From the NCBI RefSeq assembly GCF_000787855.1, contig NZ_BBPQ01000002.1, forward strand, positions 380,903 to 444,902: 64,000 bases of DNA, in the 5' to 3' direction. The notes beneath the pieces were generated by a model. That model had not been told where the DNA came from. It worked only from the letters and a program-made list of their open reading frames with translations, and searched no databases. Within the stretch, counting starts at the first letter, position 1; each line of letters begins with the position of its first letter. Below, piece after piece: positions 1 through 44,766 of the stretch. The DNA comes from Streptacidiphilus anmyonensis (GTDB lineage Bacteria; Actinomycetota; Actinomycetes; Streptomycetales; Streptomycetaceae). A program made the position numbers and the translations under genes.

Positions 1-331
1 CCTTTCGGGGGGGGCGCACGCCGAATGGGGCGCGCGCACGGAGTCATCCCGCCGTGTCCGGCAGGCTTCCATCCTGCCTCGACCCGCCGTAAAGCACTGG
101 TAAGCGGGGCGTGACCGGTCTGGCCCCCGATGTGACGCAAATCGCTTCCCGGGCGAGGTTTCCCCGCTCAGGCGCATGGGCAGGACGCTGATTACACCCG
201 CGATGCACCAGCGCAATGTGCGCTGCAGGCACATGCGTGTCATGTGTTTCGCACCCGCCCGCCGTGCGGCCATCCGCGCCGGGTCCCCCCGCAACCCGGG
301 GCCGCCACGACACCATCAAGGGGGTCAACCT

Positions 332-32349: not shown

Positions 32350-34554
32350 TCACGCACCGGGCCGCACCGGGATCTCGGCGCGGACGACCAGACCCGACTG
32401 CTCCGACCGGCCGAGCAACTGGAGTGACCCGCCCAGCTCCTGCGCCCGCTCGGTCATGGACCGCAGGCCCACGCCGCCGCCGCTCCGAACGGAACCCCGC
32501 ACCGGACTGTCCATACCGGTGCCGTCGTCCCCGATCTCCAGCCGTGCCGCGCCGTCCGCGACATCGAGGCGGAGCCGGGCGTGGCGGGCGCCGGAGTGCC
32601 GGACCACGTTGTGCAGGGCTTCGGAGGCGATCCGGTAGAGCGCCACCTCGACGGCGGCCGGCAGGCCGGGCAGCGGCTCCGGGCACAGTTCGACGTCGAT
32701 CAGCAGCAGCCGGCCCGCCAGGCCGGTCGCGAGCGCGTGCAGGCTCGGCCCGAGGCCGTCGCGGTCCAGCACGGCCGGGGTCAGCCCGGAGGTGATCCGG
32801 CGCAGCTCGGCGATGGCGTCGGCGATGCCCTCGGAGACGCCGCCGAGCCGGTTCCCGGCGGCGCCTGCGGAGGCAGCGCCGGGCAGGGTGGCGCGGGCGG
32901 TGTCGACCTGCAGGCGCAGGCCGGACAGGGCCGGGGCGAGGCCGTCGTGCAGGTCGCGGCGGAGCCGTCGGCTCGCCTCCTCGCGGGCCAGGACGATCCG
33001 CTCGCGGCTCGACTGGAGCTCCGCGTAGAGGCCGAGCGAGGCGATGGCGGGCGCGGCCTGGTCGGCGAGGAAGCGCAGCACGTCGTGGTCCTGCTGGTCG
33101 AGCTCCGGCTCGGCGGCGCGGGCGGCGACCTCCAGCACGCCGACGGTCTCGCCCTCGAAGACCAGCTCGAAGTCGTGCCAGGCGGGGCCGTGGGCCTCGC
33201 CGAGGGCGGCCGTCTGCCGACTGCCGCCGCTGGTGCGGACCAGCACCCGCGCCGCCGGGAAGCGCAGCGTCTCCACGACGCTCTCGCACAGCAGACGCGG
33301 CGCCTCGCCCGGCGTCACGGTCCGGCTCAACCGGCCGGCCAGCTCGCGCACGACGTGGTAGGGCCGGGCCCGGTCGCCGTAGTAGGAGCGGTCGACGACG
33401 CGCACCGCCCAGCCGCCCGTCGCGCGCAGGGCCAGGCCGATCACCAGCGAACCGACGGCCAGCACCAGCGCGCCGGGCGTGCGGGTGCCCGGCAGCACGT
33501 CGGAGAGGCCGACGGCGAGGGCGAAGTAACCGACCACCAGCACGGCGAGGGCGACCAGGGCGGCCAGCACCCGGCGCGTGGCGCGGTCGAGGTGCGCGGA
33601 CCGGTCCCGGGCGAAGAAGACGGCGAGGCCGAGCGGCCAGAGCGCGAGCGGACCGTAGAAGAGCACCAGGCGGGCGTTGCCGTGGAGCGGGAAGAAGTAG
33701 TCCGCGTAGCTCCCGGCGGTCAGCAGCAGGAACGGGACGAGCAGCACCAGGAGCACCCCGGGCAGCCGTGCCCGCCCGTGCCTCACGCCCGGACCCGGGC
33801 CCGAGTCCTGTCCCGCGGCCCTTCCCGCGTCCTGTCCGGCGTCCTGTTCGGCGGCGTGTCCGCGCTCCCGTCCCGCCTGCTGCCAGGAGCGGACGGCGAG
33901 GACCAGGAAGCCGAGAGCGGACAGGGTGACGGGCACGTACGACATCGGGGTGTCCCACACCGGCGCCAGCGCCTCCGAGACCGACGTCCACGGCCGCTGC
34001 ACGGCAAGAGGGTTGGGCATGCCGTACCACTCGTCCCGGGTCGCGGTGTCCAGGTAGACCTCGCCGACGGTCCACACCGCGATCACGCTCACCAGCACCC
34101 GGCCCCACCACCGTCCGGGCAGCGTGCCGTCGGGCAGCCAGAAGGGCAGGCCGTACAGGAGGAAGACATACAGGACGTCACCGACGAGCCCCGCCAGGAC
34201 GACGGCCGTGCGGACGCCGTGGTCGGCGCCGAGGGCCGCGCCCGCGATGGACGCGGCGTGGCCGACCAGCTCCGCCGTGCTCGCCGCCAGCAGCAGTCGG
34301 CCGACCGCTCCCCCGGACGGGTGGGCGAGGCTGAACGTCCCGGCGAGCGCACAGGCGAGCATGAAGAGGATGCGCGAGCCGAACGGCCCGAAGTCCAGGC
34401 CGCCCAGGCGGGAGCCGCCGAGCCCGGTGAAGGCCAGCGCCAACCAGACGAAGCACGCGCCGAGCGCGACGGCGCAGGCGACGTAGGCGGGACCCATCCG
34501 GCGGCCGACGCGCCTCCCGGCGCGTGCCGCCAAGGTCGCGGTCAGCTCGGCCAT
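32350..34554 (-). CDS. sensor histidine kinase (HisKA_3, multi-TM sensor with GAF)
   Basis: A 734-aa NarL-type sensor kinase. The N-terminal half has about ten hydrophobic segments, interrupted by a Gln/Ala/Gly-rich loop near residues 232-258. A GAF-like domain (about 425-540) precedes the HisKA_3 helix with the phospho-acceptor in RRDLHDGLAPALSG, then a HATPase domain (EALHNVVRHSGA, IGDDGTGMD, GVGLRSM). ATG 34554 follows ggggag; upstream in-frame codons to 34752 run into the regulator gene. It follows its response regulator on the same strand. The signal is unknown. Confidence 0.9.
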   Translation of the reverse strand: MAELTATLAARAGRRVGRRMGPAYVACAVALGACFVWLALAFTGLGGSRLGGLDFGPFGSRILFMLACALAGTFSLAHPSGGAVGRLLLAASTAELVGHAASIAGAALGADHGVRTAVVLAGLVGDVLYVFLLYGLPFWLPDGTLPGRWWGRVLVSVIAVWTVGEVYLDTATRDEWYGMPNPLAVQRPWTSVSEALAPVWDTPMSYVPVTLSALGFLVLAVRSWQQAGRERGHAAEQDAGQDAGRAAGQDSGPGPGVRHGRARLPGVLLVLLVPFLLLTAGSYADYFFPLHGNARLVLFYGPLALWPLGLAVFFARDRSAHLDRATRRVLAALVALAVLVVGYFALAVGLSDVLPGTRTPGALVLAVGSLVIGLALRATGGWAVRVVDRSYYGDRARPYHVVRELAGRLSRTVTPGEAPRLLCESVVETLRFPAARVLVRTSGGSRQTAALGEAHGPAWHDFELVFEGETVGVLEVAARAAEPELDQQDHDVLRFLADQAAPAIASLGLYAELQSSRERIVLAREEASRRLRRDLHDGLAPALSGLRLQVDTARATLPGAASAGAAGNRLGGVSEGIADAIAELRRITSGLTPAVLDRDGLGPSLHALATGLAGRLLLIDVELCPEPLPGLPAAVEVALYRIASEALHNVVRHSGARHARLRLDVADGAARLEIGDDGTGMDSPVRGSVRSGGGVGLRSMTERAQELGGSLQLLGRSEQSGLVVRAEIPVRPGA

Positions 34555-34657
34555 CGCACTCCCCGGCCCTTCCGGCTCCCACCCCCGTCCGCCGTGGCAA
34601 GGTTCCATGCTGGTGCGCCGGGCGTCCCCGGCGCATGGGGCAGCGGTCCCGCATGCG

Positions 34658-35413
34658 TCACCCCGTGGCGCCGGCCGGGCCGGAGGCGTGCGGCGCGTGC
34701 GGCACGCCCGGCGCGCCGGCCGGGCGCGGGGGTTCGCCGAGCCCGGCGTCACGGGCCCGCGCGGCGGCCTCGGTCCGGGTGGCGACGTGCAGTTTGTCGA
34801 AGATGTGCGAGACGTGATTGCGCACCGTCTTCTCCGCGAGGTAGAGCTCGCGGGCGATGCGGCGGTTGTCCAGGCCCCGGGCGACCAGGTCCAGCACCTC
34901 GACCTCGCGCGAGGTCAGGGCCGGGAAGAGCTGCTCGGCCTCGCGGCGGACGCCGCCGGTGAGCAGGGCCGAGATCCGGGTGGCGACGTCCGCGCTGAAC
35001 ACCGCGCCGCCGTGCGCCACGGTCCGGACCGCGTGCAGCACCTCGTCGCGGCCCGCACCCTTGACCAGGTAGCCGCGCGCCCCCGCCTGGAGCGCGCCGA
35101 GCAGGCTGCCGTCGTCGTCGGAGGTGGTCAGCATCAGCACCGGGACGCCGGGGTGCAGTTGACCCAACCGCTTGGTGGCCTCGATCCCGGAGGCGTCCGG
35201 CAGTGACAGGTCCATCACGACCACGTCGGGCCGCTGTGCCGCCACCGCCTCCAGCGCGTCCGCGGCCGTCTCGGCCTCGGCGACCACCCGCACGTCGTCG
35301 GTGCTCTCCAAGGCGGCGCGCAGCCCCTCCCGGAACAGCGGGTGGTCGTCGACGACGACCACCCGCACGCCCGAGGTCCCGCTCAGGTCCCCGTCGGTCT
35401 CCACCCGGGACAT
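34658..35413 (-). CDS. LuxR/NarL family response regulator
   Basis: A 251-aa regulator. The receiver domain has [14 protein letters not shown], the phospho-acceptor Asp in [12 protein letters not shown], and the Lys in GYLVKGAG. The LuxR-type HTH is [22 protein letters not shown] with [12 protein letters not shown]. The C-terminus is a Pro/Ala tail. The start is uncertain: ATG 35413 has a poor ribosome-binding site and may be leaderless, and ATG 35449 is possible. It precedes its cognate kinase with a 103-bp gap that contains a 9-bp hairpin (34614-34635). Confidence 0.88.
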
Positions 35414-35474
35414 GCTACTAAAAGTCAGTACACGGTCACGTTGGGCCATACGGCGACGCGCGCACCGTTGACGG

Positions 35475-36806
35475 CTACCCCTTGAGCCAGGTGAGGAACT
35501 GGCTCCAGCGCCCGCCGCGCTCGGCCTTGTCGGCCTGGGGGGCGACCGCCTCGGTCGGCCGCGGCACCCGCGTCGCGTCGGGACGGCGGGTGATCTCGAC
35601 CGGCGTGAAGCGGGTCGGCAGGGACGCGAGCCCCCGGCTGAACGGACCCGGACGCCACGACAGGCTCTGCTCGGGGACGGCGAGCACGACGTCGGGCAGC
35701 TGGTTCAGGAGGTTCTCGATCGCGGTGATCGCGATCTGGCGGGCCGGCTCCTTGGACGGGCAGGCGTGCGGGCCGGCGCTCCACGACAGGTGCGCCCGAC
35801 TGCCGGACTGCCGCGCCGTGGCGAGGGCCGGGCTGGTGTTGGCGGCGGCGATGCCGACCAGGAACAGGTCGCCCGCCCGGAAGTGCTGGCCCGCGAACTC
35901 CACGTCGCTGGCCGAGTAGTGCGCCGCGAAGTTCGCCATGGGCGGGTTCTCCCACAGCGTGTCGTCGAGCGCCTCGTCGATCAGCCCGCCCTTGTTGGCG
36001 TACCCGTCGTCGGTGAGCACCCGGTGCAGGGTGTTCCCGATGAGGTTGCGCAGCGGCTCGGAACCGGAGGCGAGCAGCAGCGCGAGCTGGTACACCATCT
36101 CCTCGTCCGTCAGTTTGGCGTGGTGCTGGAGCAGCCACGAGGTGACGTCGTCGCCGGGCCGGCTGCGCTTGAGCGCCACCAGTTCGCCGCAGGCGCCGAA
36201 CAGCACGGCGACCGCCTGCTCGGCGTTGACGCCCTCGAACATGCCCAGGGTGCCGAACATGACCCGGTCGCCGATCTCCGCGGGGCAGCCGAAGAGCTCG
36301 TTGAAGACCATGAGGGACACCTGCTTGGCGTAGTCGCCGAGCAGGTCAGCCGAACCGCGGGGGCCGAACTGGGAGATGAGGAAGTTCGAGACCTGCTCGG
36401 TGCTCCGGGCGAGCCGGTGCATGTCGATGCGGGCCATGGTGTCCGTGATCGCCTGACGCAGCCGCAGGTGCTCGGCGCCGTCGCTGAACAGGGCGTTCGG
36501 ACGGTACGTCAGCGTCGGGACGACCGGGCTGTCGAGGGGCAGGTTGCCTTCCGCCAGGTCGCGCCAACGACGCGAGTCCTTACGGAAGTTCGCCGGGTCC
36601 TGGAGCAGGCGCAGGGCGGTCTGGTAGTCGGTGACCAGCGTGGCCGGGACGCCGGGGGCGAGCTCGACGGGTGCGGTCGGCCCGAAGTGGCGCAGGTAGG
36701 AGTAGTAGGCCTGCGGGTCCGCCGCGTACTCCGGTCCGTAGATCGGCACACGGCCGTGAGCCGGGCAGCCGGGCGGGGGCACCGGGGCGGAAGAGCGAAC
36801 GTCCAT
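35475..36806 (-). CDS. cytochrome P450, CYP157-like (conservon type), without the ExxR motif
   Basis: A 443-aa P450. The haem-thiolate loop is [17 protein letters not shown] with Cys349. The I-helix region reads [16 protein letters not shown], lacking the usual AGxxT. The K-helix ExxR is replaced by D282-T-L-W285 (in [12 protein letters not shown]), as known for the CYP157 family of streptomycetes, whose members accompany conservons. The C-terminal 40 residues are a polar tail. ATG 36806 follows taggagcccc. Its upstream region shares a ~63-bp element with that of cvnA (42.7 kb), so it may belong to the same regulon although a foreign-strand cassette lies between. The substrate is unknown. Confidence 0.88.
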
Positions 36807-37383
36807 GTCTGCCTGGGGCTCCTAAGCCGGCGGGCCAGCGGAAAGCTGACGAGACTGGTCAGAGGGGCCAGCTGCTGCGTCCCCGCACGCGCGGGGTGGA
36901 CCCACCTGCTCCGCAAAATCGGTGCGATCGTATCACCGGTTCGCGGGTGCCCCCTTTCCCGTTCCAGGGCCGGGCGTTGGGGGTGCGACCGAGGGTGCGA
37001 CCGGGGGCGGCGGCCGACGGGTGATCGGCCGACACTAGCCCACCAAGATCATCACATAGTAGCTTTGCGGCGTCAGCGCTGGGCGCGCACCGCGGGTTTG
37101 CACGCTCGTGGCGTGGGGCAATGATGGGGCCGATGGGGAGGGAGTGGTTCCGGCGTGCCGCAAGACTGTTCGCATGTGAGCGCAATGGTGCGCTCCGGAC
37201 GCCTGTCGTGATCCGTTTGCGCAATTTTCCGTTGGGAATGCCAGCGGGGTTGACTGAAGGTGATCGCGTCGACTTCCCGTGAAGTCTTGTTCATCCCCGG
37301 CACCGAGGGCCTGGCCCGGTATGCGACGGTCGATCAATCGCCGGTAGCGGAGGGGACGGCGCGCTTGGAGATCGGATAGGTGA
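36807..37383. other. intergenic region between P450 and prenyltransferase genes
   Basis: About 577 bp between divergent genes. It holds the P450 leader with the shared conservon element (36877-36939) and, from about 37030 to 37290, a less GC-rich stretch likely to carry the promoter of the prenyltransferase cassette. The tandem ggtgcgaccgagggtgcgaccg is near 36979-37001. Open frames here show no coding features. Confidence 0.5.
36877..36939 (-). promoter_or_regulatory. element shared with the cvnA upstream region (P450 copy)
   Basis: The 63-bp stretch aligns with 42724-42785 at about 50 positions, including gggtggaccc, gctccgcaaa and gatcgtatca. It starts with a small hairpin (ccccgc-acgc-gcgggg) whose counterpart at 42.7 kb is ccctgc-cact-gcaggg, a compensatory C-G to T-A change. 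It ends 71 bp upstream of the P450 ATG. On the coding strand a tacgat box could serve as a -10. Confidence 0.7.
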
Positions 37384-38547
37384 GTGGACAGCATCTTCTC
37401 GGCCGAAGGGCGTTCCATCGGGGAGTTCCTCCGCGAACGCTGGACCGACATGGGCGATGGGCTCGGCCTGCCGCACTCCATGACCGGACCGGTGACGGAG
37501 CAGGTGGTGGATCTGCTGCGACCATGGGCCGACATACCCGTCGGTCGGACCTGCCCGTTCCCCTCGTTCGTCGCCGGTGACGGCTTCCCCGCCGAGATGT
37601 CGGTGAAATGGTCCCAAGGAAGACCTGAACTGCGGATCCTCTTCGAGGCGTTGGGTGCCTCCCGGCCCGTCACCGCAGCCTCCAACCTCGCCGCCGCAGC
37701 CGAACTGACGGACCGACTGGCCGCAGAGCCGCTGGTCAGCCTGGACTGGTACCGGAAGGTGGCCGACGTGTTCGCTCCGGCCGCCGACCAGGGAACCGCG
37801 CCGACGCCCGTATGGCACTCACTGGCTTGGCGCCCCGGGCGTCCGCCGGCCTTCAAGCTCTACTTCGGGCTCTACGACCTGGCCCCGCAGAAACGTTACG
37901 CCGCGGTCAACGAGGCGATGGAACGCCTCGGGATGGGCACCGCGTGGGCCGACACCTGCGTGGAGGTGGCACGAGCGACCATGGCGGACGGAGTCGAGCG
38001 CGAGCTGGAGTTCTTCGCCCTCGACCTGGACTCCAGCGCCAAGGCCCGGGCCAAGGTCTACTTCCGCAACCACACCGGCAGCGTCGCGGTCCTGGAGCAG
38101 ATGGCCTCGCTCGCCCGCGCCCACGAACCGGACAGAGCCCGCTCCGCCTTCCGGACCCTGCTCGGCACTGCGCCCGACGCCGCCGGAGACACCCCGCTGA
38201 CCTGCCTGGCCTTCCGGTCGGGCGCCAACCGCGCCGACGAGTCGACCACCTACTTCCGGGTGTCGAGTCTCACCGCCTCCGACGCAGAGGCCGCGGTCAG
38301 GATCGGCGCGCTGATGGCGCACGAGGACCTGGACCCGCGACGCCACCACGCCCTCCTCCAGGCCGTGGCCCCACAGCCCCTGAACCGGATCCGGGGCCTC
38401 CAGGAGCTGGTCAGCTACCGCTCACGCGGCTCGGAGGGCGACGTGTCCGTCTACTTCAGGTTTCCGCTCTACCCCCCGCTCGCCGCCCAGCCGAGTCCGG
38501 TGCCGCGGCAGTCCCGTGTGTTCCTCCAGGAGGTCGAATCCGTATGA
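37384..38547 (+). CDS. aromatic prenyltransferase, DMATS/ABBA type
   Basis: A 387-aa protein resembling bacterial tryptophan dimethylallyltransferase-like (indole) prenyltransferases. Evidence is the pattern of alternating strand motifs: EMSVKWSQGRPELRILFEALG, FKLYFGLYDLAPQKRYAAVN, RAKVYFRNHTGSV and STTYFRVSSLT, with regularly spaced Lys, Arg and Tyr residues of the kind that bind the diphosphate in the ABBA barrel, and a length near the family norm. No Asp-rich prenyl motif is present, as expected. The start is GTG 37384 behind ggataggtga. It is the first of three overlapping genes. The prenyl acceptor is unknown. Assignment is from motif memory. Confidence 0.72.
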   Translation: MDSIFSAEGRSIGEFLRERWTDMGDGLGLPHSMTGPVTEQVVDLLRPWADIPVGRTCPFPSFVAGDGFPAEMSVKWSQGRPELRILFEALGASRPVTAASNLAAAAELTDRLAAEPLVSLDWYRKVADVFAPAADQGTAPTPVWHSLAWRPGRPPAFKLYFGLYDLAPQKRYAAVNEAMERLGMGTAWADTCVEVARATMADGVERELEFFALDLDSSAKARAKVYFRNHTGSVAVLEQMASLARAHEPDRARSAFRTLLGTAPDAAGDTPLTCLAFRSGANRADESTTYFRVSSLTASDAEAAVRIGALMAHEDLDPRRHHALLQAVAPQPLNRIRGLQELVSYRSRGSEGDVSVYFRFPLYPPLAAQPSPVPRQSRVFLQEVESV

Positions 38548-39185
38548 CCGTCACCATGCCTGCGCCCCTGCGGGAAGTCGCCGACAGGAACGAGCAGCAC
38601 GTCCGCACATACCGCGCCAGCAGCCTGATCACTCTGTTGGAGGACCCCACGACGCCGGCGGCCACCAGGGACGCCGTCATGGCGCACGTCGCGCCGTGGT
38701 CGGACGCGTTCCAGCGGATGATCAGCGTCCGGGCGGAGTTCGAGACCGACCCCCAGCTGAAGGAACTGGCCGTCGAGCACCAGGAGGAGGAGCTCGGCCA
38801 CAACGGGATCCTGGCGGACAGCCACGACACCGGCCGGAAACCCGGCTGGGACCCCGTCGTGGAAGCCGGAGCGGCCTGGTTCGTCGACCAGTTCCGCGTC
38901 CTGCCCGGCCTGCACAAGGTCGTGCTGGCCCACCTCGTGCTGGAGGCCGGCAGCCTCACCTTCAGCAACGCCGGCTCCCTGGCCTTCCCCGGCAACGCCT
39001 ACTTCGCCCTGCACGACGAGGCGGACGAGGAGCACATCGAGATGGGCTACCGCCTGCTCGCCGAACGCCAGGAGTGGGAGCTCGGCGAGGTCAGCGAACT
39101 CCTCGACCGCGCCTGGCAGATCATCACCATGGTCTCCGACCGGATCGCCGAACTGGCGCTCCGCGACACCGCGGTGCCGGCATGA
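38544..39185 (+). CDS. haem-oxygenase-like diiron oxidase (HDO) family protein
   Basis: A 213-aa all-helical protein. Carboxylates and His are placed as in HDO enzymes such as UndA and SznF: E74/E78 and E82 with H86 in KELAVEHQEEELGHN, E134 in LVLEAGS, and the tell-tale HxxxDxxH, H157-D161-H164, in ALHDEADEEHIEMG. Members perform O2-dependent oxidations such as N-oxygenation, C-C cleavage or nitrile/alkene formation. ccaggagg precedes ATG 38544, and the start overlaps the prenyltransferase stop (ATGA). It probably oxidises the prenylated product or its precursor. Another ferritin-like/TenA-type fold is possible. Confidence 0.72.
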   Translation: MTVTMPAPLREVADRNEQHVRTYRASSLITLLEDPTTPAATRDAVMAHVAPWSDAFQRMISVRAEFETDPQLKELAVEHQEEELGHNGILADSHDTGRKPGWDPVVEAGAAWFVDQFRVLPGLHKVVLAHLVLEAGSLTFSNAGSLAFPGNAYFALHDEADEEHIEMGYRLLAERQEWELGEVSELLDRAWQIITMVSDRIAELALRDTAVPA

Positions 39186-40039
39186 GCGCACGCCCCGAGG
39201 AGACCGTCGACGCCGAATCCGCCGCCAGAGTCGCCGAGCACAGCGCCCGGCTGTTCCAGCAGACCCTCGGCGACCGTCTGGTCGCGGCCTACGCCCTCGG
39301 CAGCCTCGCCCACGGGGGGTTCGCGCCCGCCGTCAGCGACATCGACCTCGCCCTCGTCCTGACGGACCGCCGCCAGGACGACGACGAGACCGTCCGCGGC
39401 GTCACCCACGAGCTCCACCGGAAGGACGCCGCATACCAGCGCCTGTCGGTCTTCTGGAGCTCCCTGCCGGCCCTGCGCGCGGACCGGGAGGACGGCAGGT
39501 TCCCGGCCGTCGACCGGCTCGACCTCAAGGTCAGCGGTGCGCTGCTGCTGGGCGGGGACGTGCGCCCGGAGGTGGCGCAGCCGGGCGCGGCCACGCTGCT
39601 GACCGACAGCGTCCGCTTCGCCCTGCGGATGCTCGCGCCGGACCCCGTGGTGGCCGAGTTCCACCACCCCGCGCGGCTGGCGGCCGACACCAGGCGCTTC
39701 ACCAAGGCGGTGCTGCTCCCCCTCAGGTTCCTCTACACCGCCGCCGCCGCGGACTGCGGCTCCACCGACGACGCCATCCGCCACCACCTCGCGCAACCCG
39801 CACCGGTGGCCGCGGAACTCGTCCGTGCCGCGACGCGCGCACGCCACGGGCAGCCGGACCCGGCGGAGCACCTGACCGGGCTCCTGCACGCCGAGCTCGT
39901 GCCGCTCTACCTGTACTACATCGACAGCTGCCTGCCGAGGCTGGCCCGCCTGGCCCCGGCCGACGGCGACCTGGCACAGGGCCTCAGCGACTGGCGGGCA
40001 CGGCTGCTGGACCGGCCCGAAGCCCGCGCTCCGCACTGA
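39182..40039 (+). CDS. nucleotidyltransferase (aminoglycoside-adenylyltransferase-like)
   Basis: A 285-aa protein with the Pol-beta-type nucleotidyltransferase signature GSLAHGGFAPAVSDIDLALVL (GS at 40-41, D53 and D55 as metal ligands) and a helical C-terminal domain as in ANT(3'')-type enzymes (AADTRRFTKAVLLPLRFLYT). It would transfer AMP or another nucleotide to a hydroxyl of a small molecule. The ATGA overlap with the oxidase gene ties it to the cassette; it may modify the product or protect the producer. No antibiotic resistance phenotype can be claimed. A strong terminator follows. Confidence 0.8.
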   Translation: MSARPEETVDAESAARVAEHSARLFQQTLGDRLVAAYALGSLAHGGFAPAVSDIDLALVLTDRRQDDDETVRGVTHELHRKDAAYQRLSVFWSSLPALRADREDGRFPAVDRLDLKVSGALLLGGDVRPEVAQPGAATLLTDSVRFALRMLAPDPVVAEFHHPARLAADTRRFTKAVLLPLRFLYTAAAADCGSTDDAIRHHLAQPAPVAAELVRAATRARHGQPDPAEHLTGLLHAELVPLYLYYIDSCLPRLARLAPADGDLAQGLSDWRARLLDRPEARAPH

Positions 40040-40094
40040 CCCGCCACCGCACCGGCCTGCCACCGCGCAGGCCTGCCACCGTGCAGGGCAACCA

Positions 40095-40127
40095 GAAGGG
40101 GCCGTCCCTCCCGGGGACGGCCCCTTC
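40095..40127. terminator. bidirectional terminator between cassette and cvnD
   Basis: gaaggggccgtccc (40095-40108) and gggacggccccttc (40114-40127) form a perfect 14-bp stem with a 5-nt loop in the 116-bp gap between convergent genes. Confidence 0.9.
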
Positions 40128-40155
40128 GGCGCGGGCGCGAGAGCGTCGCCGACCT

Positions 40156-40767
40156 CTAGCCGACCCGGGCCAGCAGGTAGCTGACGAGCGTGGTCAGCGC
40201 GGCGGCCGACGACTGCTCGTCGCGCGCGTCGCAGGTGACGACGGGGGTGTCGTCGAGGAGGTCGAGGGCCTCCCGCAGCGCGGCCTCGGCGCGCACCGGG
40301 TTGCCGTCGAAGTTGTTGACTGCGATCGCGTAGTCGAGACCGTACTGCTCGATCAGGTCGATCACCGCGAAGGAGTCGGCCAGCCGCTCCGGGTCGACCA
40401 GGACCAGCGCGCCGAGGGCGCCCCGGGCCATGTCCTCCCACATCTGCACGAACCGCACCTGTCCGGGGGTGCCGAACAGGTAGAGCACGACGCGGTCGCT
40501 GATGGTGAGCCGGCCGAAGTCCATGGCCACGGTGGTGGTGGTCTTCCCCCGGACCCCCTTCAGGTCGTCCACGTCCTGCGCGGCCCGGGTCATCGTCTCC
40601 TCGGTGGACAACGGCTCGATCTCGGAGATCGAGCCGATGAACGTGGTCTTGCCCACCGCGAAGTGACCGACGACGAGGATCTTGACGGCCGTCTGCGAGG
40701 CGCCGCCCGCGACGTAGTCCCGCGACTGCAGGCTCGGTCGTTCACCCAAACTTGGCCCGGAGACCAC
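40156..40767 (-). CDS. cvnD: conservon GTPase CvnD
   Basis: A 203-aa small GTP-binding protein of the conservon type. G1 is VVGHFAVGKTTFIG; G3 reads LFGTPGQVRF where Ras has DTAGQ; NNFDG replaces the usual NKxD, as is normal for CvnD proteins. It works with CvnA-C as a membrane-associated, GPCR-like signalling complex. GTG 40767 is chosen because ggaggaggt lies just upstream; it overlaps the end of cvnC by 26 bp. The terminator 40095-40127 lies just beyond the stop. Confidence 0.92.
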   Translation of the reverse strand: MVSGPSLGERPSLQSRDYVAGGASQTAVKILVVGHFAVGKTTFIGSISEIEPLSTEETMTRAAQDVDDLKGVRGKTTTTVAMDFGRLTISDRVVLYLFGTPGQVRFVQMWEDMARGALGALVLVDPERLADSFAVIDLIEQYGLDYAIAVNNFDGNPVRAEAALREALDLLDDTPVVTCDARDEQSSAAALTTLVSYLLARVG

Positions 40768-41119
40768 TGAGCACCTCCTCCAGCAACTCCTTGTCGGCGA
40801 GGCGGGCACGGGCCACCGGCGGACGGGTGATCAGATAGCCGGCCTCGGTGAGTCCGGCCAGCATGATCCGCACCACGCCCAGCGGCAGCCGCGTGTGCCC
40901 CGCGATCTCGGCCACCGAGAGGTAGCCCGCGGAGCAGAGGTCCAGCAGCCGCTGTTCCTCCGGCGACAGCCGCAGCGGCCGCTGCACCTGCTCGGGCGCG
41001 GCCGTCACCAGGGTGATCAGCGAGAGCTGGTCGTCGTCGGGCAGCCCGCGTCCCTTGGTGATGACGTACGGACGCACTAACTCCGTGGCTTCGAGCTCGA
41101 AGTCGCCGGGCCCGTTCAT
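40742..41119 (-). CDS. cvnC: conservon protein CvnC (DUF742)
   Basis: A 125-aa DUF742 protein. The N-terminal VRPYVITKGRG is typical, followed by a winged-helix-like segment (SVAEIAGHTRLPLGVVRIMLAGLTEAGYL). It bridges CvnB and CvnD in the complex by family knowledge. The start overlaps the cvnB stop (ATGA) and the end overlaps cvnD by 26 bp, so all four proteins are translationally coupled. Confidence 0.93.
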   Translation of the reverse strand: MNGPGDFELEATELVRPYVITKGRGLPDDDQLSLITLVTAAPEQVQRPLRLSPEEQRLLDLCSAGYLSVAEIAGHTRLPLGVVRIMLAGLTEAGYLITRPPVARARLADKELLEEVLSGLRAKFG

Positions 41120-41517
41120 GAGCGCACTCCGAGGTTCTCGCGCGGCGGCGCGACCAGCACCTTGCCCAGCTGGCCGACCAACTGCTGCATCCGGAAGGTG
41201 ATGTCCTGCATGTCGACGTCCGCCTCGGCGGAGACGCCGAGGTAGGCGCCCTCACCGGCGGAGATCAGGAACACCCAGCCGCCGTCGAACTCGACCAGCG
41301 TCTGGCGCCAGCGCCCGCTGCTGTCCTCGCAGAAGAAGCCGAGCGAGCGGCTCAGCGACTGCACACCGCTCATCGCGGCGGCGACGCGGTCCGCGTCGTC
41401 CTTGTCGAAGTCCTTGGTACGGGCCATGAGGAGCCCGTCGGCCGAGATCAGGACCGCGTGCAGGGCCCCGGGAATCTCCAGGGCGCTGTCGAGCATCCAT
41501 GACAGATCTTCGTTCAC
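41116..41517 (-). CDS. cvnB: conservon roadblock/LC7 protein CvnB
   Basis: A 133-aa roadblock/LC7 domain protein (IPGALHAVLISADGLLMART, AMSGVQSLSRSLG, VSAEADVDMQDITFRMQQLV). Roadblock proteins act as scaffolds or GTPase-activating partners of small GTPases such as CvnD. Coupled to cvnA upstream and cvnC downstream by ATGA overlaps. Confidence 0.94.
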   Translation of the reverse strand: MNEDLSWMLDSALEIPGALHAVLISADGLLMARTKDFDKDDADRVAAAMSGVQSLSRSLGFFCEDSSGRWRQTLVEFDGGWVFLISAGEGAYLGVSAEADVDMQDITFRMQQLVGQLGKVLVAPPRENLGVRS

Positions 41518-42689
41518 GAGAACTCATGCCCTTCACTGCTTGACCCACGTGTGCTGATCGACTGGTCCGTGTCGTCCCCACGGGCGGCCCGGCCCGACCG
41601 GGTGCCGCGCTGGAACGCTCCCATGATCGCCGCGGTCTCCGCGCCGGACCGGGCCGAGGCGATCGGGGTGGGCGCGGAGCCCGGCACGATCGCCATCGGA
41701 CGCTTACGCCTTCTCAGCGGCAGTCCGTCGGTGGTCGTCGGGGAGGCCGGCACGGGCTCGGGCCCGTTCGGCTGCGGCGGTGGCACGGAGGAGCGCGTCA
41801 TGGGAGCAGCCGGTGCCTTCTTCTCGGGCATGGACGTCAGCAACTCGTGCGGCAGCAGGACCACCGCCCGCACGCCGCCGTAGGGCGAGGAGGAGTCCAC
41901 CGACACCTCGAAGCCGAAGCGCTCGCTCAGCACGCCGATGACGGCGAGACCGAACTGCGGCGGATTACCGAGCCCCGCGACGCTCTTGACGCGGTCGCTG
42001 CTCAGCAGCCGCTCCGCGCGGGCCCGTTCCTCGTCGTTCATGCCGACACCGGCGTCGTCCACGACGATCGCCACGCCCTTGGGCACGGTGCGGATGTTGA
42101 TCTCGACGACCGTGTCCGGGCTGGAGTAGCTGGTGGCGTTGTCGAGGAGCTCGGCCAGGGCCAGCGCCACCGGCTCGACGGCGCGGCTGGAGATGCCGAA
42201 GTCCACCTGGGAGAGGATCTCCACGCGTCGGAAGTGCCGCACGCGTCCCTGCGCGCTGCGGACCACGTCGTAGACCGAGGCGTTGTCGCGGTGGCGGCCG
42301 AGCCAGCCGTCGCAGAGCACCGCGATGGACTGGGCGCGGCGGCCGAACTGGGAGTTGGTGTGGTCGATCTCCAGCAGGTCCTGGAGGATGACCGACTCAC
42401 CGTGCTTGGTCTGCAGCCGCGAAAGGATCAGCTGCTGCTCGGCGGCCAGACCCTGAAGGGTGCGCATGGCCGACTTCAGCACGGTCTTCGTCGCTTCCTC
42501 GGCCTGTTCCTGGGCCGAGGCGACGGACTGCATGTAGTGGTGCTCCAGATCGGAGTAGTACTCCCTGAGCCCCGCTATCTCCTGCCGCAACGCCATGGCC
42601 GCCTTGCGCTGGCGGACGACGACGGCGATCACGATGAGCAGGAGCACGACAAGAGCCCACAGCGCTGGGTTCTCGATGTATTCCGTCAT
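41514..42689 (-). CDS. cvnA: conservon sensor kinase-like protein CvnA
   Basis: A 391-aa membrane-anchored kinase-like protein. One transmembrane helix (about residues 10-27) is followed by a coiled segment (30-95), a DHp-like region and a HATPase domain (ELLDNATSYSSPD, VDDAGVGMNDEE, PPQFGLAVIG). There is no extracytoplasmic sensor domain, as is usual for small CvnA forms. The last ~100 residues are Pro/Ser/Arg-rich and probably disordered. ATG 42689 follows gaagagag. It heads the conservon; the shared element 42724-42785 lies just upstream. Confidence 0.93.
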   Translation of the reverse strand: MTEYIENPALWALVVLLLIVIAVVVRQRKAAMALRQEIAGLREYYSDLEHHYMQSVASAQEQAEEATKTVLKSAMRTLQGLAAEQQLILSRLQTKHGESVILQDLLEIDHTNSQFGRRAQSIAVLCDGWLGRHRDNASVYDVVRSAQGRVRHFRRVEILSQVDFGISSRAVEPVALALAELLDNATSYSSPDTVVEINIRTVPKGVAIVVDDAGVGMNDEERARAERLLSSDRVKSVAGLGNPPQFGLAVIGVLSERFGFEVSVDSSSPYGGVRAVVLLPHELLTSMPEKKAPAAPMTRSSVPPPQPNGPEPVPASPTTTDGLPLRRRKRPMAIVPGSAPTPIASARSGAETAAIMGAFQRGTRSGRAARGDDTDQSISTRGSSSEGHEFS

Positions 42690-42723
42690 AAGACTCTCTT
42701 CAGGCGTCTGACAGCCGGTCTCC

Positions 42724-42785
42724 GCGTCCCTGCCACTGCAGGGTGGACCCGCCCGCTCCGCAAAGCGAGGTGATCGTATCATCGG
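42724..42785 (-). promoter_or_regulatory. element shared with the P450 upstream region (cvnA copy)
   Basis: The 62-bp partner of 36877-36939, placed 35-96 bp upstream of the cvnA ATG. It shares gcgtccc at one end, the covarying six-base-pair hairpin (ccctgc-cact-gcaggg), gggtggaccc, gctccgcaaa and tgatcgtatca. The order and spacing are the same apart from one base. A common regulator or RNA structure for conservon and P450 is inferred. Confidence 0.7.
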
Positions 42786-42986
42786 CCACACAGGCAACCG
42801 ACCGAGCGTCCGCCCGGCAGTCTCGACATGAGGATGCGTCTCTTCCACTTGTACGAGACCCAGTTGACGCGAGCCTGGCACACCGCGGGCGCGCCCCAGC
42901 CGACTTCACACGAACATCACCAACACTTAACGCAGACAGGCCGTTTGACGCCCCCGCGAGTCGATGTGAGTCGTCGTGAGCCGACG

Positions 42987-43493
42987 TCAGTCGACGACGG
43001 GGCTGCGACGCTCGACCAGCACGACATCGCGCCAGACGCCGTGCTGGCGACCCACCCGCTCGCGGGTCCCGATCACCCGGAACCCGGCACGCTCGTGGAG
43101 CGCGAGGCTGGCGGCGTTCTCCGGGAAGATCCCGGACTGCACGGTCCAGATCCCCGCCGCCTCGGTCGAGGCGATCAACGCCTCCAGCAACGCCCGCGCC
43201 ACCCCGCGCCCACGGGCATCCGGACGGACGTAGACGGAGTGCTCGACCACGCCCGCGTAGGCACGCCGGTCCGAGACCCTGCTCACGGCCACCCAGCCGA
43301 GCACGCGCCCGCCCCCGTCGACGACCACGAACCGGTGCCCGCCAAGCCTGGCCCGGTCGAACTCCTCCCACGCCGGCGCCCGGGTCTCGAACGTGGCATC
43401 ACCCTCGTCGATCCCGGCCTGATAGATCGCCAGCACCTCCGACGCGTGCTCGGCGGTCATGGGGACGACGACGGTGTCACGGTTGCTGTTCAT
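42987..43493 (-). CDS. GNAT acetyltransferase, phosphinothricin-acetyltransferase-like (PAT)
   Basis: A 168-aa GNAT enzyme. IYQAGIDEGDATFETRAP, the acetyl-CoA loop RPDARGRGVARALLEAL and SGIFPENAASLALHERAGFR match the PAT/YncA group, whose members acetylate phosphinothricin, methionine sulfoximine or related amino acids. Whether it detoxifies such a compound here is not known. It is transcribed singly, between rtcB and the conservon. Confidence 0.88.
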   Translation of the reverse strand: MNSNRDTVVVPMTAEHASEVLAIYQAGIDEGDATFETRAPAWEEFDRARLGGHRFVVVDGGGRVLGWVAVSRVSDRRAYAGVVEHSVYVRPDARGRGVARALLEALIASTEAAGIWTVQSGIFPENAASLALHERAGFRVIGTRERVGRQHGVWRDVVLVERRSPVVD

Positions 43494-43572
43494 CAGCGCC
43501 CATCATCGCTCCCCCGAGCGGCCCCGGGTCTCCGTCCCCCGTGACGGAGGACCCGGGGGGTGACGTTCGGCC

Positions 43573-44766
43573 TCAACCCTTGACGCAGACGACCTGCTTG
43601 AGCTCGGCCACGACCTGCACCAGGTCGGTCTGCTGGGCCATCACCTTCTCGATCGGCTTGTACGCGCCCGGGATCTCGTCCACGACGCCGGAGTCCTTGC
43701 GGCACTCCACGCCCCGCGTCTGCTCCACCAGGTCGCGGACGCCGAACTTGCGCTTCGCCGCCGAGCGGGACATCTTGCGTCCCGCGCCGTGCGACGCGGA
43801 GTTGAACGCCGCCTCGTTGCCGAGACCGCGGACGATGTACGAGCCGGTGCCCATGGAGCCCGGGATGATCCCGTAGTCGCCCGCGCCGGCGCGGATCGCG
43901 CCCTTGCGGGTGACCAGCAGGTCCTCCCCCTCGTAGGTCTCCTCCGCCACGTAGTTGTGGTGGCAGGAGATGACCTGGTCGAAGGTGACGTTCGCCTTGC
44001 GGAACTCCTTGCGGACGGCGTCCTGGAACAGCGCCATCATCACCGCGCGGTTGCGCTTCGCGTACTCCTGCGCCCAGAACAGGTCGGCGCGGTAGGCCTG
44101 CATCTGCGGGGTCGCCGCGATGAAGACCGCGAGATCGCGGTCGACCAGGTTCTGGTTGTGCGGGAGCGAGCGGGCGACGCCGATGTGGTGCTCGGCGAGC
44201 TCCTTGCCGATGTTGCGCGAGCCCGAGTGCAGCATCAGCCACACCGCGCCCGACGTGTCGAGGCAGACCTCGATGAAGTGGTTGCCCGAGCCCAGCGAGC
44301 CCATCTGCTGCAGCGCCCGCTCGCGGCGCGCCTTCACCGCCGGGGTGAGGTCGTCGAAGCGGGACCAGAAGTCGTCCCAGCCGCCGGTGGCGAAGCCGTG
44401 GATCCGGCTCGGGGCGACCGGGTGGGCGTGCAGGCCCCGACCGACGGGGATGGCCTGCTCGATCTTCGAGCGCAGTCGGCTGAGGTCATCGGGCAGGTCG
44501 CGGGCGGTGAGCGAGGTCTTGACCGCGCTCATCCCGCAGCCGATGTCCACGCCGACCGCGGCCGGGCAGACCGCGCCCTTCATGGCGATCACGGAACCGA
44601 CCGTCGCGCCCTTGCCCAGGTGGACGTCGGGCATGACGGCGAGGCCGTGGATCCACGGGAGGGAGGAGATGTTGCGCAGCTGCTGGAGGGCCTGGCCCTC
44701 GACCGTCGCGGGGTCGGTCCACATGCGGATGGGCACGTTGATGCCCGGGATCTCGGTGTACGACAT
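43573..44766 (-). CDS. rtcB: RNA-splicing ligase RtcB
   Basis: A 397-aa RtcB, the GTP-dependent ligase joining 2',3'-cyclic-phosphate or 3'-phosphate to 5'-OH RNA ends. Key residues appear in AVGVDIGCGMSA (Mn-binding Cys), LGSGNHFIEV, LHSGSRNIG and the guanylylation site NSASHGAGRKMSR. ATG 44766 follows ccaggagaac. No archease or RtcA gene is adjacent. A 29-codon ORF with its own strong ribosome-binding site lies 76 bp upstream and may be a leader. Confidence 0.95.
   Translation of the reverse strand: MSYTEIPGINVPIRMWTDPATVEGQALQQLRNISSLPWIHGLAVMPDVHLGKGATVGSVIAMKGAVCPAAVGVDIGCGMSAVKTSLTARDLPDDLSRLRSKIEQAIPVGRGLHAHPVAPSRIHGFATGGWDDFWSRFDDLTPAVKARRERALQQMGSLGSGNHFIEVCLDTSGAVWLMLHSGSRNIGKELAEHHIGVARSLPHNQNLVDRDLAVFIAATPQMQAYRADLFWAQEYAKRNRAVMMALFQDAVRKEFRKANVTFDQVISCHHNYVAEETYEGEDLLVTRKGAIRAGAGDYGIIPGSMGTGSYIVRGLGNEAAFNSASHGAGRKMSRSAAKRKFGVRDLVEQTRGVECRKDSGVVDEIPGAYKPIEKVMAQQTDLVQVVAELKQVVCVKG

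Follow-up and report, generated by a model that had tools for sequence, protein, structure and literature searches.

Why should a cytochrome P450 gene that stands apart from a conservon carry the same upstream element as the conservon itself? The question is raised by a stretch of 64,000 nucleotides from Streptacidiphilus anmyonensis (contig NZ_BBPQ01000002.1, positions 380,903 to 444,902; hereafter the window), in which cvnA, cvnB, cvnC and cvnD stand in order and a P450 gene lies 3.3 kb off behind a gene cassette, not directly after cvnD. According to passages in PMC8510531 and PMC13343842, some conservons have such a P450, CvnE, as their fifth gene. Very probably, the window P450 is a cvnE copied out of its operon that carried the promoter and leader of the conservon with it, including a putative dedicated operator, and so kept control shared with the conservon.

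The P450 gene (ATG at 36806) and cvnA (ATG at 42689) share the minus strand, and their upstream regions align locally with 49 matching positions in 63 columns and one gap (score 33.5). Scores in 40 first-order Markov windows did not exceed 21.5, and the next-best site in the window scored 16. An earlier note on this DNA had described an alignment of about 63 bp and 50 positions in the same orientation to both genes (36877–36939 and 42724–42785), as well as a 2.7-kb cassette on the other strand between them; both hold, coordinates included, and the cassette measures 2656 bp (37384–40039, plus strand). Read along the minus strand, each copy consists of a palindrome with a central TGATACGAT, a 24-bp block of the pattern TTTGCGGAGC(R)GG(Y)GGGTCCACCC and a 6-bp hairpin. 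In the P450 copy, the palindrome (GRTGAT-ACG-ATCRY, with TGATACGAT as putative extended −10) is at 36924–36937 with the hexamer TACGAT at 36927–36932; the conserved 24-bp core (92% mean identity), which would hold the transcript start TTTGCGGAGCAGGTGGGTCCACCC, is at 36894–36917, and the hairpin CCCCGC/GCGGGG, in the putative 5′ untranslated region (UTR), is at 36881–36896. The corresponding parts of the cvnA copy are located at 42770–42783 (hexamer 42773–42778), 42741–42764 (putative start TTTGCGGAGCGGGCGGGTCCACCC) and 42728–42743 (hairpin CCCTGC/GCAGGG).

The remainder of the P450 leader (36807–36868, minus strand) is a decayed cvnD 3′ end with the cvnD–cvnE junction and a ribosome-binding site. 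These last ~60 bases before the ATG align to the same region of an intact operon (L073) with a score of 40.5, and the stand-alone P450 leaders of seven species score between 34 and 43.5 against that locus; 2000 shuffles of the window leader, compared with L072 rather than L073, reached at most 21. Within the window, the best other match to the 3′ part of the leader is the 3′ end of cvnD itself (40145–40221). A 1-base insertion before the TAG puts the stop of the remnant out of frame. The cvnD tail and the cvnE ribosome-binding site are found in all seven stand-alone P450 leaders compared. Since the P450 leader thus joins a cvnA leader, a cvnD tail and cvnE, the sequences argue firmly for an operon duplication followed by deletion of cvnA, cvnB, cvnC and most of cvnD. 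A cvnABCDE operon was duplicated, and in the duplicate all sequence from the end of the cvnA leader to the final ~45 bp of cvnD was deleted. The deletion fused the cvnA leader to cvnE, so that a copy of the conservon promoter now drives the P450 as a separate transcription unit, and the original cvnE then disappeared from the operon. The shared regulatory element of the earlier note does link the P450 to the conservon; judged from the cvnD remnant, however, it is not a freely spread motif but a duplicated promoter and leader on a former operon gene.

The undivided arrangement is the usual one in relatives, as seen by tblastn of the window proteins against fetched loci: the order is cvnA-B-C-D-P450, with the P450 usually 18–30 bp after cvnD. 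Automatic counts in three sets of loci, which overlap partly in genomes, placed the P450 directly after cvnD in 13 of 17, 37 of 40 (two further loci being incomplete) and 12 of 13 loci. The six loci without an in-operon P450 are those of five Streptacidiphilus genomes with a stand-alone P450 (G006, G007 twice, G008, G009 and G010). Most genomes have one form or the other, not both; a single genome, G003, has both. The seven stand-alone copies form one clade in the P450 tree (support 100/99), and the sister of this clade is an in-operon Streptacidiphilus gene, on contig C4 of G003 (100/99). G010 and G009 lie apart in a tree of concatenated CvnA, CvnB and CvnD but are sisters in their stand-alone P450s; G010 has the cassette in inverted orientation; and in G003 the stand-alone P450 and cassette occupy a different contig, where the 12 kb read contain no conservon. 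These three observations suggest that the P450 unit has moved independently.

The presence of a single P450 form in most genomes, and the position of the cassette between cvnD and the P450 in the window, would also fit an insertion of the cassette between cvnD and the original cvnE, which would have stayed in place and gained only a promoter copy. We consider this improbable: the P450 leader holds a cvnD tail in addition to the one in the intact cvnD, and the inverted cassette of G010, the cassette without a nearby conservon and the second, in-operon P450 of G003, and the conflict between the conservon and P450 trees for G009 and G010 all speak against it. Two independent binding sites that converged on one regulator, with no duplication, are scarcely credible. 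Their likeness is strong only in the palindrome and core and their flanks differ, as convergence would have it, but the homology spans 63 bp and includes the hairpin, and the cvnD remnant directly downstream refutes convergence as the origin of the P450 copy.

How widely the duplicated element occurs was examined at several levels. In the 9.39-Mb genome of the window, the 24-bp core is found with up to three mismatches only at the two known sites. At this threshold it is present in 9 of 14 Streptacidiphilus genomes, the match in G013 being unrelated in context, and it precedes the P450 with 0–2 mismatches in seven genomes of the genus. A covariance model built from 15 copies and scanned over 394 genomes of the family gave 32 matches in 25 genomes with E ≤1.2e-6, 25 before one orthologous cvnA and seven before the stand-alone P450, the latter all within Streptacidiphilus. 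Of the 16 matches that follow (E 1.4e-4 to 0.01), 13 are at the same cvnA in Streptomyces, assigned by the pattern of the cvnA start, and three are elsewhere. Since strong matches occur only at one cvnA and the stand-alone P450, the element belongs to one conservon. The exact palindrome GRTGATACGATCRY occurs seven times in five whole genomes (G000, G006, G170, G277 and G382), always at cvnA or this P450, so that the element is not scattered over random genomic positions. TGATANNATCA precedes cvnA in 7 of 12 further cvnABCD-P450 loci, with CvnA 45–75% identical, and in none of 29 conservons of other types scanned (33 regions fetched from four genomes; cvnA starts guessed). A loose TGATNNNATC site lies 356 and 895 bp upstream of two other-type conservons. 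The search upstream of conservons that the earlier note had proposed was thus positive for one cvnA type and its P450 and negative for the other conservon types tested; an operator common to all conservons was rejected because these types lack the palindrome. Distant cvnE conservons of Streptomyces (L141 and L158) show TGATA(A/C)GATCAT, in L141 followed directly by a CCCACT-TTTC-AGTGGG hairpin, like a reduced form of the layout.

What the element does is suggested by its composition. TG-TA--AT (TGnTAnnAT) is invariant in the 15 aligned copies, and hexamer positions 3 and 4 vary, as a −10 box tolerates. RNA polymerase would use the extended −10 TGATACGAT, and the surrounding palindrome is probably the binding site of a regulator that switches P450 and conservon together. 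Across seven species the P450 element is 85% identical overall and 92% identical in its first two thirds, the palindrome and core, compared with 33–60% for upstream DNA and 86–87% for P450 coding DNA of the same species. Most likely, the element is a dedicated promoter and operator that maintains joint expression of the P450 and the conservon. Of the two roles offered by the earlier note, operator or 5′ RNA motif, the shared operator is the likely one and is favored because the palindrome is nearly unique to these genes; the RNA role would rest on the hairpin covariation described below. Many Streptomyces copies (long leaders such as L131 and L129) also have a conserved TTGACG ~24 bp ahead of the −10; this distance is too great for a −35 box, and the sequence is possibly another binding site.

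The hairpin is the least conserved part among the P450 copies (70% mean identity), with varying sequence that mostly still pairs. The C-G to T-A exchange described by the earlier note is present and recurs in the leaders of relatives: among 15 leaders, the exchanged pair is CG in six, UG in five, UA in two, GC in one and unpaired in one. In this set 91% of cells pair, and the covariation score was reached by none of 500 shuffles. For 25 leaders of three genera, 91% of cells pair as well, with the covariation score reached by 3 and the double-change pairs by 6 of 500 shuffles. A stem-loop in the 5′ UTR of the leaders, and the selection on its structure that the earlier note had proposed, have modest support on this basis. 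The stem-loop may affect the 5′ UTR, for instance through mRNA stability.

Several results weigh against the account given so far. The count of double-change hairpin pairs in the 15-leader set was reached by 114 of 500 shuffles, and whole leaders fold no better than shuffles (z 0.61 and 0.22). No −35 box is present at the element, and a scan with the sigma-70 consensus found no promoter there. The conservation of the element is partly due to common descent, the cvnD remnant being likewise 90% identical. Finally, G003 is 10% contaminated, and its two P450 forms may stem from two organisms.

The same cvnA has a longer leader (~150 nt) in most Streptomyces and two Kitasatospora, in which the palindrome and start are followed by ~70 further bases and then the hairpin. 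The alignments comprised 30 long leaders (A3, leaving out L103, L106, L122, L135, L156 and L158), 53 (A5, leaving out L122) and 38 (A6) of 54 distinct long leaders, and 25 short leaders (A4, leaving out near-identical Kitasatospora rows and one identical Streptacidiphilus row). Helix P4 of the long leader is supported by 16 double-change cells, a number reached in 0 of 500 shuffles and far above slid controls. Helix P1 was rejected: it is 88% paired, with covariation not beyond shuffles (36/500). A long-leader model (R2) gave 13 strong matches (≥58 bits) in 249 genomes of the family, all at cvnA; weak matches away from cvnA number three in these genomes and three in 138 genomes of the class. 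As far as searched, the long form is confined to this cvnA and is used by no other gene family. The ~150-nt leader has one covarying helix, matches nothing in Rfam and is possibly a new RNA element.

Could the element be mainly a cis-regulatory RNA, similar to a riboswitch or attenuator, with its promoter likeness secondary? The covariation of the hairpin and of P4 would agree with this, as would the overlap of the P1 3′ strand with the hairpin, which would make the two mutually exclusive. The lack of support for P1 counts against it, however, as do inconsistent single-sequence folds (a single-fold consensus of the leaders has no base pair above 0.4 mean probability), the failure of the window leader to fold better than shuffles, and the absence of the P4 domain from the short form of the window. 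No stem with a U run, as in an intrinsic terminator, was found at the element. Rfam 15 has no family match to 35000–44000 of the window or to the leaders of nine related loci; the leader shares a 5′ UTR hairpin with compensatory change with the leader RNAs of Rfam, and differs from them in matching no family. We therefore regard a mainly RNA-based element as doubtful. Slightly less likely still is the fuller proposal of a new cis-regulatory RNA of cvnE-type conservons, full-length in Streptomyces (compensatory P4; P1 and the hairpin, H2, exclusive), internally deleted in most Kitasatospora and in all Streptacidiphilus leaders read, carried to the copied P450 and acting with the dedicated palindromic operator. 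Leader-peptide attenuation was rejected, since the start and frame of a small open reading frame are not kept in 79 leaders before cvnA; the conserved-looking tail SRLKRVL is just the in-frame translation of the ribosome-binding site. Also rejected was a hairpin at the extreme 5′ end, which is not above mononucleotide shuffles (mean z −0.5 over 53 leaders). Hairpin-only folds used stretches 1–2 bases off the exact hairpin. The only Rfam matches in the loci of relatives are a neighboring tRNA and two sub-threshold microRNA matches; the tRNA gene precedes the conservon by a short distance in L131 of Streptomyces (98–182, plus strand; 1e-8).

The conservon of the window encodes, on the minus strand, CvnA, a histidine-kinase-like ATPase (41514–42689; HATPase_c, 6e-10), the roadblock protein CvnB (41116–41517; Robl_LC7, 6e-23), the DUF742 protein CvnC (40742–41119; 1e-35) and the small GTPase CvnD (40156–40756, 5′ end approximate; ATP_bind_1, 6e-29). 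The stand-alone P450 (35475–36806, minus strand), a paralogue of cvnE of the conservon by its place in the tree, is 75–77% identical to in-operon P450s of the genus. This P450, which we take to be of the CYP157 type, is divergent (E 0.21 with Pfam p450, and as low as 4e-18 with NCBIfam P450 models, though below their cut-offs). A two-component pair follows it (32350–35395, minus strand), likewise in G006, G007 and G008; tblastn did not find the pair in the stretches read from G009, G010 and contig C35 of G003.

The cassette, divergent from the P450, consists of plus-strand genes for a DMATS-type prenyltransferase (37384–38547; Trp_DMAT, 1.7e-16), a haem-oxygenase-like protein (38544–39185) and a nucleotidyltransferase-like protein (39182–40039), the latter two with weak Pfam matches. 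A search of 384 genomes of the family also found it in two Streptomyces, where neither this P450 nor the element accompanies it. In one (G082, L340, 3053–11544) a different, distant conservon (CvnA 33% and CvnD 50% identical) is ~3.5 kb away; in the other (G337, L339), no P450 of this type, conservon or element lies within 19.5 kb. According to passages in PMC3617294, which define clusters of types A and B, indole-prenyltransferase genes (SCO7467, for instance) always have a conservon upstream, and some conservons include a P450 as an additional gene. The window resembles these in having a conservon and P450 beside a DMATS-type prenyltransferase; its three cassette genes, however, include no tryptophanase or flavin monooxygenase and show the haem-oxygenase-like and nucleotidyltransferase genes instead. 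The prenyltransferases found downstream of cvnE in Streptomyces and Kitasatospora are only 25–30% like that of the window. The cassette possibly represents a third type of conservon-linked indole prenylation cluster.

Judged by its genes, the window conservon is a rearranged variant of a CvnE-type conservon: the content and order of cvnABCD are the same and the P450 is related to in-operon cvnE of relatives, whereas cvnE has been split off, duplicated and placed under its own copy of the conservon promoter and leader. Parts of earlier reports state that some of the conservons, cvn13 (SCO7463) included, are repressed by ppGpp (PMC2374992) and that BldC acts at some conservon promoters (PMC6428758). 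Literature searches on conservon promoters, riboswitches, gene duplication with P450, and cvnA with P450 found nothing on the element, subscription literature being mostly outside their scope. Neither type of conservon accessory protein has been biochemically assessed, according to a passage in PMC13343842. That a P450 outside the operon has retained the control region of the conservon, in one genome with no conservon linked to it in the sequence read, suggests that the two need to be expressed in step. The near-unique 14-bp palindrome provides a direct handle on the putative regulator of these conservons.

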